A DNA stretch of 60,396 nucleotides from a bacterium (GTDB lineage Bacteria; CLD3; SB21), in NCBI GenBank assembly GCA_016787925.1, contig JAEUSK010000175.1:1-60396 (forward strand), written 5' to 3'. Below, piece after piece: positions 1,243-27,404 of the stretch. Under the pieces are notes generated by a model that worked only from the letters and a program-made list of their open reading frames with translations, searched no databases and was not told the DNA's origin. The first letter of the stretch is position 1. Each line of letters begins with the position of its first letter. The position numbers and the translations under genes are program-made.

Positions 1243-2409
1243 TCAATTATTTATTAATGCTACTGACCCTACTCGCACAGCGCTATTGCCGTATCTATGA
1301 TTGATAATGTCTACGGCTTTGAGTAACCATTCTCTACGCTCCTCATTTTGCCTTAGGAGATCGATAGTAAATCTGTCTTGTGTGAATTTTGTTATCCCAA
1401 CTCCAATTAAACGTATGGTGACGCGTCGGTCATCCGCCTTATGGAACAGAGATAATGCCGTTTTGTAGATCACGATAGGATCGTTGGTCGGCTCTACAGT
1501 GATCTGTCGTGTATGGTCTACCCAGTCGGAATAGCGAAGTTTTATCCTAATGCACCGTGCCCTGAGATCCATGGAGCGCAATTCCTCTGAGATTTCCAAT
1601 GACATATCGTGAATCATATTCGATAGGAACCCGGCGTCTCTTGTGTCCGTTGCGAATGTTTCTTCGCGAGAAATTTGTTTTTGTTCTATGGCCGTGATCA
1701 GATATTGCTCACCGTAACCCTTTGCATACGATTGAATAGCCAGCCCCGATTTACCAAACGCCTTGCCGACATAGTCGGAATCGAGCTTGGCAAATTGCCC
1801 GCAGGTTCTGATTCCTCTGGAATTAAGCCTTTCTAACATCACTGCGCCCACGCCGCTAAGGACGCTTACGCTTAAGGGCTCCAGAAATTGAGCCTCTTTG
1901 CCCGGAACGATTTCAATTACGCCGTCCGGCTTGGCCTGATCGCATGCCACCTTTGCAGCCATCTTATTTGAAGCAATGCCGATGGCGCAGGGCAACCCGA
2001 AATTCGACAGGATCGTCTTTTGCAATCGTAATGCAAATTTATATAAGTCCCCGCCAAATATTCTTTCACATCCTGTCCAATCCAGATAAAATTCGTCAAT
2101 GCTGGCCGATTCAAAACGAGGAGCATAATACTTGATCAACGCCTGAATTTTTTCGGAATATTCCTGATAAACCGAAAAGTGTCCGTCGATACGGATCGCA
2201 ACGGGACATTTTTTTTCCGCCATGGCCGTGGACATACCGGCGCGGACGCCGTATTTGCGAACTTCATACGACGCACAGGTCACAACGCCCCGGCTTGACG
2301 AGGGTCCGGCAACCATGATAGGCTTTCCGACCAGACTTGGATTGAGGATCCGCTCCACCGAAACAAAAAACGCCGTAAGGTCGATATGAACTATTCGTAT
2401 AATAGGCAT
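1243..2409 (-). CDS. dinB: Y-family DNA polymerase (DinB/Pol IV-like)
   Basis: A 388-residue translesion DNA polymerase. The palm motif HIDLTAFFVSVE (metal-binding Asp10) and the second catalytic pair SIDEF (Asp105, Glu106) are present, followed by the FGLPCAIGIASNKMAAK segment and a helix-hairpin-helix-like LSGVGAVMLERL region near residue 185. Length suits a full Y-polymerase with little finger. The start lies two bases after the stop of the preceding small gene, indicating translational linkage in the lexA operon. In other bacteria an ImuB-type Y-family protein occupies this place in lexA/imuA-imuB-dnaE2 cassettes. Here the catalytic residues are intact, so an active DinB-type enzyme is more likely than a catalytically dead ImuB. 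Confidence 0.92.
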   Translation of the reverse strand: MPIIRIVHIDLTAFFVSVERILNPSLVGKPIMVAGPSSSRGVVTCASYEVRKYGVRAGMSTAMAEKKCPVAIRIDGHFSVYQEYSEKIQALIKYYAPRFESASIDEFYLDWTGCERIFGGDLYKFALRLQKTILSNFGLPCAIGIASNKMAAKVACDQAKPDGVIEIVPGKEAQFLEPLSVSVLSGVGAVMLERLNSRGIRTCGQFAKLDSDYVGKAFGKSGLAIQSYAKGYGEQYLITAIEQKQISREETFATDTRDAGFLSNMIHDMSLEISEELRSMDLRARCIRIKLRYSDWVDHTRQITVEPTNDPIVIYKTALSLFHKADDRRVTIRLIGVGITKFTQDRFTIDLLRQNEERREWLLKAVDIINHRYGNSAVRVGSVALINN

Positions 2410-5014: not shown

Positions 5015-6058
5015 TTACTCCAGTATAATTTGTCCAGCCCCTTCTGTTACAAAACCAATAATACGAGTCGACAGATAGCCGCACTTCCGCAGGCAGGCAA
5101 CCAACTCATCGGCCAGAGATTTTTGAACTGCAATCAACAGCCCTCCGGATGTTTGGGGATCGAATAGGAGCCTTTTCGAGCTCTGATCTACAACATTAGA
5201 TTGAGTTAGGTTATCTCCAATTAATAGACGGTTTACCTTGTTTCCTTTGGTTAAATACTTTTTATGCAGAGCAAACTTCCTTGCGTTTCTGAAAAATGGA
5301 ACCTGGCTCACCACGATAATTAAATTGACCCTACCGGCGGCTGCCATTTCAAATGCGTGTCCCAGCAATCCAAAACCTGAAACATCGGTTGCTGCGTTTG
5401 CCTTGAATTGTCGTATCAGATCTGCCGCACCGCCATTCAGCTGGATCATCGACTGCACAATCTCTTTCACGTCCGAGGGCGACGCATCGCCCTTTTTTAA
5501 TGCAGTAGCTATGATACCCGTTCCAATCGGCTTGGTTAAAATCAGAACATCGCCTGGTTTTGCATTAGCATTTGTTATAATATTATTAGGAGAGATAATT
5601 CCGGTAACCGATAGGCCATATTTGATTTCTTTATCCTCAATCGAATGACCGCCTACTAATACCGCGCCGGCTGCTTTAATTCGCTCTGCTCCTCCCTCCA
5701 GGATTTTCTGTAAAACATCGATGGGCAATTCTTTGGTTGGAAAGCACACTATATTCATAGCCGTAAGCGGCTTGCCTCCCATTGCATAAATATCCGACAG
5801 CGCATTCGAGGCGGATATTTGGCCAAAGGCGTATGGATCATCCACTATCGGAGTGAAAAAATCCACCGTTTGGATAAGGGCGGTTTGTCCATTGAGGCGA
5901 TACACGCCGGCGTCGTCGGATGTTTCCAGCCCAACCAATAAATTATCATCTGTGAATTTCGGCAGACCTGCCAAAGCGGTCCTCAAATCGAGAGGACTCA
6001 TTTTGCTGGCTCAACCGGCGCATTCAACAGTTTGGGTAAGGCGAATTTTCTTTTTCAT
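5015..6058 (-). CDS. selD: Selenide, water dikinase (selenophosphate synthase), itself a selenoprotein
   Basis: Makes selenophosphate from selenide and ATP, the selenium donor for Sec-tRNA and selenouridine synthesis. From the ATG at 6058 the protein is 347 residues, the length of E. coli SelD, and begins MKKKIRLTQTVECAG. An in-frame TGA (6011-6013, codon 16) is followed by ASKMSP. The TGA falls exactly where E. coli has catalytic Cys17 (GCGCKISP), and the following Lys is kept, so I read it as selenocysteine. A hairpin directly 3' of the TGA supports this. A caller that treats TGA as stop would begin at the Met at 6001 and lose the active site. Later motifs (DDAGVYRL, TVDFFTPIVDDPYAFGQI, LVGGHSIED) are normal. 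Confidence 0.9.
5970..6010 (-). promoter_or_regulatory. Candidate bacterial SECIS hairpin in selD
   Basis: Immediately after the selD TGA the mRNA can form a perfect 6-bp stem, GUCCUC (5992-5997) with GAGGAC (5979-5984), closing the 7-nt loop UCGAUUU. A possible outer helix is GCCA (6007-6010) with UGGC (5970-5973). The apical loop begins 19 nt after the UGA, within the spacing known for bacterial SECIS elements, and contains a G. Folding was done by eye. Confidence 0.65.
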
Positions 6059-6080: not shown

Positions 6081-7784
6081 CTATGCGCTAAGACTTGAAA
6101 TAAGCTCTTTTGCGTTCTCTAAAGATGCTTCCGTGACCTGTTCGCCACCCAGTAATTTAGCAACTTCATGTAGTTTATCGTCTTGTGAAAGTCTGTTGAT
6201 TGCGGTAACCGTCTTGTTCTTACTAAAGCGTTTTTCAACGGAATAATGCGATTGTGAAAAGCCGGCAATTTGAGGCAAATGTGTAATGCAAATAGTTTGG
6301 TGAGATTGTGCAAGGTGGTATAATGATTTGCCAACCGCCTGCGCAATGCGTCCGGAAATGCCGACATCGATTTCATCGAAAACCAAAGTAGGAATCTGAT
6401 CCGACCCTGCCAGCACGGATTTAAGACTTAACATGATGCGCGATACTTCACCGCCCGATGCCACCTTGGCCAAAGGTTTTGGCGATTCTCCTAAATTTGT
6501 GGAGATCATGAATTCAACGAAGTCCAGGCCAGATGATGACGCGTTAACATGAATGCCGTTCACGGTGATGAAACTTTCCGGGTTTTCACTGTATTTAATT
6601 TCAGTTCTAAATTGGGCGTGTTCCATACCCAAATTCCGCATTACCAAAACGACTTTTTTGTCGAGGTCAACGGCAAATTTACGTCGTTGCGAAGTTAATT
6701 CAGCACAGATTCTGGTGTAATTCTCAACTTCCACGTCAAGTTGCTTTTGCATGTTACTTAATTCAAAATCAAAGTTATCCGATATATTAATAGCTTCTTC
6801 GATTTGAGCTTTCTTTTCAAGAATTTCGTCGATCGATCCGTATTTCTTTTTCAATCGTTGGATGGCCGCAATTCTCATCCTAATTTCTTCAAGCCGCTCC
6901 GGTTCAAAGGTTATTTTCTGATGGTAATCACCGACCCATCGCGACACTTCTTCCAGTGTGATTTTTGCCGTGACAAATTGGGAAATTATGTCATTCAGCC
7001 GCTCGTCAACTTTTTTAATTTCTTCAAAATCACGAAACGTTTCGCCTAATATTTCCACGACCGATCTCTCTGTGTCATATAGGGCATCATATATTTTTTT
7101 TGTCAGCTCAAAAAGTTTTTCAGAATTAGAAAAGATCTTTTCTTCCCGTATTAATCTAACGTCCTCATCGATGTCCGGCGAAATATCCTTAATCTCCTTT
7201 AATTGATGCTGAAAGAATTCACGCTTGTCAAGATAGGTTAGTTTATGGTCTTCAAGCTCTCTAATTTTATTCTTGATTTCGCTGATCCTTTTGAATCTCT
7301 GTCTGACTTCGTTTCTCACAGGCTCAAGACAACCGTAAGAATCCAGGATATCGACATGAATTTCCTGATGCAGCAGAGACTGATGGTCATGTTGCCCGTG
7401 CAGATCAACAAGGAGGTCACCTATTGACTTAAGAAGTGAAGTCGTAATGAGTGTATCATTGACAAAACATCGATTCTGACCTTTAAGAGAAATTTCGCGA
7501 CGAATCAAAATCTCATTGTCATTAATCTCGATATCGTTTTCTTGCAGTAAACTTCGTAAGCCGCTGTTATTGTCAATTGTAAACGTACCTTCAATTACTG
7601 ATCGGTCTGCGCCGGTGCGGATATTATCAGTTGCTGCCCGTTCTCCAAGGATCATGGATAACGCGCCAAGGAGAATAGATTTTCCTGCGCCTGTTTCGCC
7701 GGTAATGATGTTTAAACCAAGTTCAAATTGAATTTCGGCGTCTTCAATCAGGGCGAAGTTCTTTATACTAAGCGTTCTAAGCAT
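6081..7784 (-). CDS. recN: DNA repair protein RecN
   Basis: An SMC-like ATPase for double-strand break repair, 567 residues. Walker A GETGAGKS is at residues 29-36. A long coiled-coil middle region spans about 150-370. The ABC signature region (KVASGGEVSRIMLSLKSVL) and Walker B (TLVFDEIDVGISG) lie in the C-terminal head, followed by the TICITHLPQIA H-loop. Length is typical. It sits between ribH and selD on the same strand with short gaps (48 and 22 bases). recN is SOS-controlled in many bacteria. A half-site resembling the lexA palindrome (CCATAC) lies upstream near 7812, but symmetry is lacking. Confidence 0.97.
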   Translation of the reverse strand: MLRTLSIKNFALIEDAEIQFELGLNIITGETGAGKSILLGALSMILGERAATDNIRTGADRSVIEGTFTIDNNSGLRSLLQENDIEINDNEILIRREISLKGQNRCFVNDTLITTSLLKSIGDLLVDLHGQHDHQSLLHQEIHVDILDSYGCLEPVRNEVRQRFKRISEIKNKIRELEDHKLTYLDKREFFQHQLKEIKDISPDIDEDVRLIREEKIFSNSEKLFELTKKIYDALYDTERSVVEILGETFRDFEEIKKVDERLNDIISQFVTAKITLEEVSRWVGDYHQKITFEPERLEEIRMRIAAIQRLKKKYGSIDEILEKKAQIEEAINISDNFDFELSNMQKQLDVEVENYTRICAELTSQRRKFAVDLDKKVVLVMRNLGMEHAQFRTEIKYSENPESFITVNGIHVNASSSGLDFVEFMISTNLGESPKPLAKVASGGEVSRIMLSLKSVLAGSDQIPTLVFDEIDVGISGRIAQAVGKSLYHLAQSHQTICITHLPQIAGFSQSHYSVEKRFSKNKTVTAINRLSQDDKLHEVAKLLGGEQVTEASLENAKELISSLSA

Positions 7785-7832
7785 CTCAATGGAACGTTTT
7801 GTTTACGGAATAGTATGGAAAAGGCCACAATG

Positions 7833-8294
7833 TCATTTTAATTGTTTCAACAAATTTACCATTTCAATAGCCGTCAATGCCGCATCCCAGCCCTTATTCC
7901 CGCTTTTAGAACCGGCGCGCTCAATTGCCTCTTCCAGTGTATCGCATGTAAGAACGCCAAAAATGGTTGGGATACCCGTTTGAAGTGCGACTTGCCCGAT
8001 GCCTTTTGCGGCTTCCCCTGCAACATAGTCGAAATGGGATGTCTTGCCGCGAATAACCGCGCCCAGGCAAATTACGGCATCATATTTTTTCGATTGCGCG
8101 GTCCTTAGCGCAGCGAGCGGAATTTCGAATGATCCTGGAACTCTGACGATGTCGATATTTTCTTCGTTTCCGTCATGACGTCGGATGCAATCCGTTGCAC
8201 CCTCTAGTAGCTTATCCGTTATGAAGCTATTAAAACGGCTTACGATGACTGCATATTTGTGATTCTGCGCTGATATCTTTCCCTCGAATTTCAT
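7833..8294 (-). CDS. ribH: 6,7-dimethyl-8-ribityllumazine synthase
   Basis: The penultimate enzyme of riboflavin synthesis, condensing 3,4-dihydroxy-2-butanone 4-phosphate with the ribitylaminouracil. It has 153 residues from the ATG at 8294, chosen because GAGGA lies at ideal spacing; a TTG four codons earlier overlaps that site. Visible motifs are the substrate-binding [37 protein letters not shown] with the catalytic His, and [16 protein letters not shown]. No other riboflavin genes are nearby and I saw no FMN riboswitch. It is read with recN and selD downstream. Confidence 0.96.
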
Positions 8295-8312
8295 AAAAAT
8301 CCTCAATGTTTC

Positions 8313-9290
8313 TTAATATGTAAATCGTATAGTAGAAAATGTGATTAGTTCATTTTGATGCAGCTTCTGTTCGAGCCTCATAGATAAACTTAGTTTAGCT
8401 GATTCCTCCCTATTCTTTCGTTTTACAGTCCAGACGGCGTCTGTCATGCTTAAAAGGTGATTGATCATAATTAGACCGGTCATTCCGCGAGCCGTGCTCA
8501 GGTATTCATTGCTCTTGATACGCATTCCTCGGTAGTCTATCATCAATGGCGTGAGGTTATTTCTTGTATACCCAGTATACGGATATGTGTTCTGATTATT
8601 TATAGCATCACTCCAGCCAAGCCCAAATTGTTCGGGATATTTGTAAATCATCTCGTAATACTGCTGACGGGAATTTTCATAAAGATGATGAACTGAAACT
8701 CCGGTGTTAGCCCCCCATTCGTTTTCAGCAGACTCCAATAATGCAAAATTAATTCCGCTGTCTTTTCGGCCTAAGTCGCCGGGTCCTATTGTAAAATTCG
8801 GATCATTTTGCAGTGACGTTTCCAAAAATTGAAGATACTTATCAACATCCCAATGATTGTCGGCAAAGTTCTCATATCTTCTCTCGAACTTCTTTCCCTT
8901 ATTTTTGTTATGAAAATAAAGCACCCATCCCGTAATTTCCAAGACTAAAAAGGAGGCGCCCTTTATCACGCTTTCCCGGCCTTTTTGGGAATAAATCTGG
9001 CCTGTGCCCGGTAGAAGTGCAGACATGCTCATGGCAAAAAAGGCAGATTTCTTTTGATGGCCTGAACCGGAATTACTCAAGTAGGATTCCTGAAAATCCG
9101 TATGCTTTTGTGATACATAAAAAGGCCGACGCAAGGAGTCAATGTGAAAGCGGTTCACATGATGGAAAGCAACAAGCGTTTTGGTTGGAACCACTTTTCC
9201 ATCTGAAGCCAAAACATCCTGCCACATCAGAAAAATAATAAGACTGTAAAGTGCTGGTTTCAATTCACCGTGGTTGATGTTTAACGTCAC
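8313..9290 (-). CDS. DUF5683-like secreted/membrane protein
   Basis: An uncharacterised protein of up to 325 residues. The GTG start at 9290 lacks a good ribosome site; an in-frame TTG about ten codons later, preceded by GGTGA, would start at the signal-like segment LKPALYSLIIFLMWQDVLA. The recognisable part is MSALLPGTGQIYSQKGRESVIKG near residue 105, followed by a hydrophobic segment. This is typical of the DUF5683 family found in FCB-group bacteria. The C-terminal half is rich in aromatic and polar residues and has no motif I know. It directly follows the GWxTD gene (three bases), so the two probably act in the same envelope-related process. Confidence 0.65.
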   Translation of the reverse strand: MTLNINHGELKPALYSLIIFLMWQDVLASDGKVVPTKTLVAFHHVNRFHIDSLRRPFYVSQKHTDFQESYLSNSGSGHQKKSAFFAMSMSALLPGTGQIYSQKGRESVIKGASFLVLEITGWVLYFHNKNKGKKFERRYENFADNHWDVDKYLQFLETSLQNDPNFTIGPGDLGRKDSGINFALLESAENEWGANTGVSVHHLYENSRQQYYEMIYKYPEQFGLGWSDAINNQNTYPYTGYTRNNLTPLMIDYRGMRIKSNEYLSTARGMTGLIMINHLLSMTDAVWTVKRKNREESAKLSLSMRLEQKLHQNELITFSTIRFTY

Positions 9291-26801: not shown

Positions 26802-27404
26802 ATGATAACCCATTCACCAACACGTCAATTTGGTATTACCATATTCTTCTTGTTCAACTTTCTGATACCAAGGATTGAGATTATTCAGATTATCCCATAC
26901 CAAGACTCGGGTGAGCTAAAATGCGATGTTGTTATCAACGATCTGTTCAACTCAAAGACTCATTCAGTCCTCTTTAGCGGCATACCGATTCATGTTGTCA
27001 TAACTGCAAAACTGCAGCGTGTTGAGAGCAAAGAGGTTCTGGTCAATGAAACGAAGATTATTCTTTCTTATGATGTTTGGAATGAAGAGTTTACTTTTGA
27101 ACAATCAGGTATCAAGGAGCAAATCCATAATTTGGATTCGTTGAGAAACCGCCTTAAAACACTGAGGGGTATCCCAATATCAAATCTGTCTCTATTGACG
27201 GAGGACCAAAGATTATATATATCGATGAAGATTCATGTCTACAATGAACGATCAGGCAGCCTTATAGATTCGATTAGCCAGACGTCGTCTAACAAAAAAT
27301 TCACTCTTGGAGCTGTTATAAAGTTTTTTTTCGGCAAATCTGAACCGGATGACCATTGGTATCACTCCGGCACATTTACGTTACATGAATTGAAATCGAA
27401 TTGA
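26802..27404 (+). CDS. DUF4390-like exported protein upstream of an NtrY-like kinase
   Basis: A 200-residue protein of low similarity to anything I can name with certainty. A hydrophobic N-terminus (FGITIFFLFNFLIPRIEII) looks like a signal or anchor. The rest alternates beta-strand-like stretches (HVVITAKLQRVESKEVL, IILSYDVWNEEFTF) and resembles DUF4390, a family that often precedes NtrY-type kinases. The start is four bases after nth and the kinase begins three bases after its stop. The placement suggests an accessory sensing role for the kinase, which is inference. Confidence 0.6.
   Translation: MITHSPTRQFGITIFFLFNFLIPRIEIIQIIPYQDSGELKCDVVINDLFNSKTHSVLFSGIPIHVVITAKLQRVESKEVLVNETKIILSYDVWNEEFTFEQSGIKEQIHNLDSLRNRLKTLRGIPISNLSLLTEDQRLYISMKIHVYNERSGSLIDSISQTSSNKKFTLGAVIKFFFGKSEPDDHWYHSGTFTLHELKSN

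Follow-up and report, generated by a model that had tools for sequence, protein, structure and literature searches.

SelD ranks as one of the two bacterial selenoproteins with the widest distribution, and Sec-containing forms of the enzyme are already known (PMC1794560, PMC13188914). In the published model of the bacterial SECIS (bSECIS), 16–37 nt separate the UGA from the apical loop (PMC13188914). bSECISearch misses 13% of bacterial selenoprotein genes (PMC12013277), and reviews note that some bacterial SECIS elements lie outside the model and raise the possibility of distinct classes (PMC13188914, PMC12013277). We analyzed a selD gene located in a 60,396-nt stretch of bacterial DNA (hereafter the window; Table 1). 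The gene resembles bacterial Sec-SelD of the SPS2 type in the fold and family of its product, in the Sec codon at the position of E. coli Cys17 and in the presence of selA, selB and selC in the genome; however, its SelB-type loop lies 41–42 nt downstream of the UGA, with another hairpin in front of it. The hairpin carrying this loop (H2) is similar to a classical SECIS (E. coli fdhF; bSECIS), with a 6-bp stem (up to 7–8 bp in relatives) and an AGGUCU loop identical to that of fdhF (fdhF sequence verified across 5,388 E. coli genomes), but its spacing exceeds 16–37 nt and a hairpin (H1) lies in between. Our search of the open-access literature returned no account of a bacterial SECIS with two hairpins or a spacer hairpin.

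Table 1 Features of the selD locus and of a second selenoprotein gene in the same genome (G000).
Feature	Position	Strand	Basis or remark
selD, selenide water dikinase, 346 residues	5015..6055	(-)	Translation with TGA = U; TIGR00476; PRK00943; PDB relatives
selD start ATG; stop	6055-6053; 5017-5015	(-)	Purifying selection sets in sharply at the ATG
ATG of the mechanical ORF start	5999..6001	(-)	Just after the conserved Lys
Sec codon UGA, aligned with E. coli Cys17	6011..6013	(-)	TGA or Cys codon in all 125 SelD loci; Sec machinery in genome
Hairpin H1, GUCCUC-UCGAUUU-GAGGAC, probable spacer	5979..5997	(-)	nt 17-35 from UGA; folding and synonymous null
Hairpin H2, UUUGGC-AGGUCU-GCCGAA, probable SelB-binding SECIS	5957..5975	(-)	nt 39-56 from UGA
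SelW-like (Rdx) selenoprotein, L267	G000 contig C288:25821-26033	(-)	In-frame TGA, SECIS; L268 and L269 in congeners

The selD gene and its in-frame UGA

Translated with TGA read as U, the gene yields MKKKIRLTQTVECAG-U-ASKMSPLDL..., in which Sec is residue 16; this TGA is the only one in frame within selD. The product belongs to the SelD protein family, with a TIGR00476 match (E=2.1e-114) above cut-off in a profile search, a PRK00943 match likewise over its cut-off, and solved selenide, water dikinases (2yye, 3u0o) among its PDB relatives. The original prediction of a 347-residue read-through product was one residue too long when counted from ATG to stop; the RLTQ that it placed near the N-terminus is present (MKKKIRLTQ...). 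It was also right that the usual start call would remove the active site: translation from ATG 6001, the mechanical ORF start, loses both Sec and the catalytic Lys. In three congeneric comparisons, the 15 codons 5' of the TGA showed nine synonymous and no non-synonymous changes, and the codons just upstream of ATG 6055 changed freely. We take ATG 6055 as the start because purifying selection begins sharply there. The mechanically called start needs correction to this codon; a start at 6001 would delete the active site.

The selD TGA aligns with the E. coli catalytic residue Cys17, which stands in a GCGCK motif. Its counterpart in Aquifex SelD is likewise the catalytic Cys (GCAAK, PDB 2yye). 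Alignment of 125 distinct loci, including both Sec-SelD and Cys-SelD, bore out the predicted position: TGA occupies it in 67 and TGC or TGT in 58, with no other codon seen. The conserved Lys, predicted to follow the TGA directly, lies three residues downstream (U-A-S-K). Exactly one TGA was found in the SelD of both congeners, of G003 (a member of the window's family) and of most others among 98 related genomes searched; it stands at the same codon in the congeners (83–84% identical) and in G003. No relative was seen with a normal stop followed by a separate start at 6001, the pattern named beforehand as evidence against readthrough.

At the position two residues after Sec, Sec-SelD proteins mostly carry Ala, Ser or Gly (GUASK/GUAAK) and Cys-SelD proteins a second Cys (GCGCK/GCACK); Cys occurs there in 2 of 44 Sec rows versus 53 of 54 Cys rows, and in a few more Sec rows of the wider set. 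Open frames of about 745 residues with a Cys-type SelD domain were observed at L045 (G038), L046 (G009) and G053:C33:26310-27335, and are presumably the known oxidoreductase-SelD fusion; in G038 and G053 they coexist with separate Sec-SelD genes.

The genome of the window (95% complete) encodes SelA (E=3.7e-146), tRNA-Sec with anticodon TCA (selC) and SelB, the last in two pieces at two contig ends and whole in the congeners. All three genes that the original prediction implied are therefore present, among them selB and selC, whose absence was to count against it. Across nine genomes of the class, SelD and SelB are both present in six, each with a Sec-SelD, and both absent in three. The genomes G004, G005 and G006, from the same family as the window, have neither SelD nor SelB; the trait was therefore lost or gained inside the family. 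Two DNA polymerase IV (DinB) genes were observed, one in the window at 1243–2409 (-) and one on contig C163 of the same genome at about 7674–8870 (-), the second adjoining the tRNA-Sec gene.

SelD is not the sole selenoprotein of these organisms, a possibility that we rejected after a coding-TGA scan of ~2 Mb (almost the whole of congener G002) found a SelW-like (Rdx) gene (CVVU) whose in-frame TGA is present in the window genome and both congeners. Its SECIS, CCGCC-GGUCU-GGCGG, has the canonical GGUCU loop in all three. The SelW-like gene thus shares the in-frame TGA and the GGUCU loop with selD, but its SECIS is near (loop nt 25–29) and without a spacer hairpin. The TGA codons sought in formate dehydrogenase did not appear (none in six molybdopterin-oxidoreductase matches), nor was a Sec peroxiredoxin found among nine AhpC-TSA matches (none with TGA), and a search for SelU/YbbB (selenouridine) returned none. 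The sequences flanking a further TGA in the window, at 27402–27404 (+), both look coding and share its frame (234 and 529 codons); congener locus L220 has a counterpart, and two congeners keep the frame open before and after the TGA. This TGA probably separates two adjacent genes, because a Met follows two codons after it.

The conservation of the TGA, the Sec machinery and the upstream purifying selection support the prediction that SelD is encoded as a selenoprotein, and the sequence evidence indicates that selD is the gene of a Sec-containing selenophosphate synthetase. The TGA, its conservation, the machinery and the hairpins described below can be read directly in the DNA; insertion of Sec at the UGA is what we infer.

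Two hairpins downstream of the UGA

With the UGA numbered nt 1–3, H1 consists of a 6-bp stem (nt 17–22 with 30–35) and the 7-nt loop UCGAUUU at nt 23–29. Folding gave pair probabilities of 0.99–1.0, and synonymous codon randomisation rarely matched its stability (p<1/500; p=0.007 with bulges allowed). Both congeners and G003 also have a hairpin in this interval, which in G003 is rebuilt with a different sequence. The perfect 6-bp hairpin with a 7-nt loop that had been proposed after the TGA therefore exists and folds, but it is probably not the SelB-binding SECIS: the loop is without the GG or GU found at the start of SelB-binding loops. H1 sits where the SelB-binding hairpin of other selD genes is located, at a distance within the 16–37 nt bSECIS spacing but with a loop that departs from the bSECIS loop rule. 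H2 is the better SECIS candidate.

H2 begins three nt past H1, and its loop contains GGUCU, the loop of the organism's own SelW-like SECIS. Set against the bSECIS model, the H2 stem has 6–7 bp with a GGUC or AGGUCU loop, and the UGA-to-loop distance is beyond the model's range; an extra pair (nt 38–57) forms in the congeners. Folding energies of H2 alone were -6.8 (window), -9.1 (congeners) and -12.9 kcal/mol (G003), and that of H1 plus H2 was -17.3 kcal/mol, the energy criterion of the bSECIS model being an MFE of at most -7.5 kcal/mol. Thirteen nucleotides of H2 are invariant in four genomes of the family, and no other part of the region is conserved as well. In the family alignment, 96.4% of H2 cells are paired, with two double compensatory pairs; two pairs are altered on both sides in G003 with pairing retained. 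Furthermore, the three central codons of H2 are identical in all four genomes, compared with only 29 of 144 same-residue columns. In the single-gene synonymous null, H2 of the window selD reached p=0.014 (0.045 with bulges allowed) and its relatives 0.003–0.020; these within-family values (0.003–0.045, bulges allowed) are modest. SelB probably binds H2, as suggested by a loop identical to that of E. coli fdhF and shared with the organism's own SelW-like SECIS. Rfam SECIS_1 matched neither the whole genome nor the site (cmscan), a result that is uninformative because E. coli and other control genomes give no match either.

Near and far SECIS elements among SelD genes

Since a distance of 41–42 nt is outside the published range, we compared all Sec-SelD loci in the sample. 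A GG/GU-loop hairpin with p<0.05 against synonymous randomisation was called near when the loop lay at about nt 20–25 and far when it lay at nt 36–46. Among the 67 Sec-SelD loci, 31 had a near hairpin, 21 a far one and none both; the same criteria gave four near and two far in 58 Cys-SelD controls. A far SECIS is found in 24 of the 67 sampled Sec-SelD genes, about a third, from Bacillota, Myxococcota, Zixibacteria and further lineages, and most others have the classical near type. In the 20 far genes other than those of the window's family, the far hairpin (nt 28–48) is paired in 166 of 180 cells, versus 42–84 in slid registers, and most variable positions show several pair types. Inheritance of the far genes as one clade was rejected: parsimony demands at least 10 near/far changes on a weakly supported tree, three or more of which are unavoidable given its well-supported branches.

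A hairpin without a SelB-type loop occupies the H1 interval in 23 of the 24 far genes, the exception being L043, where it is missing or marginal. Outside the window's family these hairpins are short (3–7 bp, only 3–4 bp in several) and their single-gene p-values weak. Counting one gene per clade, the interval is more stable than under synonymous randomisation (Fisher 1.7e-9) and than other parts of that gene (3.6e-9), in tests that treat related genes as independent. The baseline of the Cys controls is mildly raised in this interval (median p 0.27–0.37), and part of the signal therefore reflects coding constraint. H1 spans 19–23 nt with the SelB-type loop at 41–42 nt in the window's family, and 9–17 nt with the loop at 33 nt in the other far genes. 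Removing the H1 length leaves ~20–24 nt, near the classical distance, a pattern that fits a spacer and in which the window's family alone supplies a distinct second point; the constancy of this remainder is weak evidence in the other far genes, because it is confined by geometry. We consider it rather probable that H1 is a spacer hairpin and not a SelB-binding SECIS. The spacer role is our least certain inference, since H1 is short in many genes and coding constraint may contribute.

H2 could instead serve as the SECIS with a SelB that simply tolerates 41–42 nt, leaving H1 as a pause element or as what is left of an ancestral near SECIS. Two genomes of the window's class, G007 and G008, carry a near SECIS at nt 17–34, of which H1 could be the remnant and from which we conclude that the SECIS arrangement changed within the class; the published distance range, moreover, already extends to 37 nt (PMC13188914). 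Against this, the retention of H1 beyond the synonymous expectation and its reconstruction in G003 are more than a decaying remnant would be expected to show, and some hairpin is kept in the interval in all but one of the far genes. We regard this explanation as unlikely, though it is the strongest competitor of a spacer.

Still less probable is that the Sec-SelD is real but H1 binds SelB, with H2 a coding coincidence. H1 is stable, stands at the classical distance and has an invariant G-A in its loop in four genomes; however, the G-A opens a conserved Asp/Glu codon, and the loop lacks the G that the bSECIS model requires in its first two positions (PMC13188914). The same SelB must also read GGUCU in the SelW-like gene, a motif that stands in H2 and not in H1, and it is H2 that is best conserved. 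Finally, a true stop or sequencing error at the TGA, with a truncated SelD from ATG 6001, is refuted on present evidence: that ORF is formally open, but its product would be without the catalytic residue and Lys, the TGA recurs at this codon in some 60 further loci besides both congeners and G003, the codons upstream of it are under purifying selection, and the Sec machinery is present.

A possible mechanism and its implications

We hold it likely, judging from sequence comparison, that the locus encodes a Sec-SelD whose mRNA is bound by SelB at H2, with H1 probably acting as a spacer. When the ribosome arrives at the UGA, SelB carrying Sec-tRNA-Sec (anticodon UCA) would bind the AGGUCU loop of H2, and Sec would be placed at the catalytic position. 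H1 would then sit where the mRNA enters the ribosome, a place taken by the SelB-binding loop in other selD genes, and would probably fold away about 19 nt, bringing H2 to roughly the usual distance from the UGA. The resulting SelD would make the selenophosphate required by SelA to charge tRNA-Sec, and the charged tRNA would serve SelD itself and at least one further selenoprotein, the SelW-like protein.

Whether bacteria possess a second SECIS class, with the UGA followed first by a short spacer hairpin lacking a SelB-type loop and then by the SelB-binding one, that arose repeatedly in the selD genes of several phyla is in our judgement evenly balanced. The SECIS arrangement matters more than the Sec-SelD itself, which is of a known kind. 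It is poorly defined how SelB gauges the UGA-to-SECIS distance; a spacer hairpin offers a simple, testable rule. If true, this rule would extend the SECIS model and improve selenoprotein prediction, and the two-hairpin class could explain why the standard SECIS model overlooks some known selenoprotein genes.
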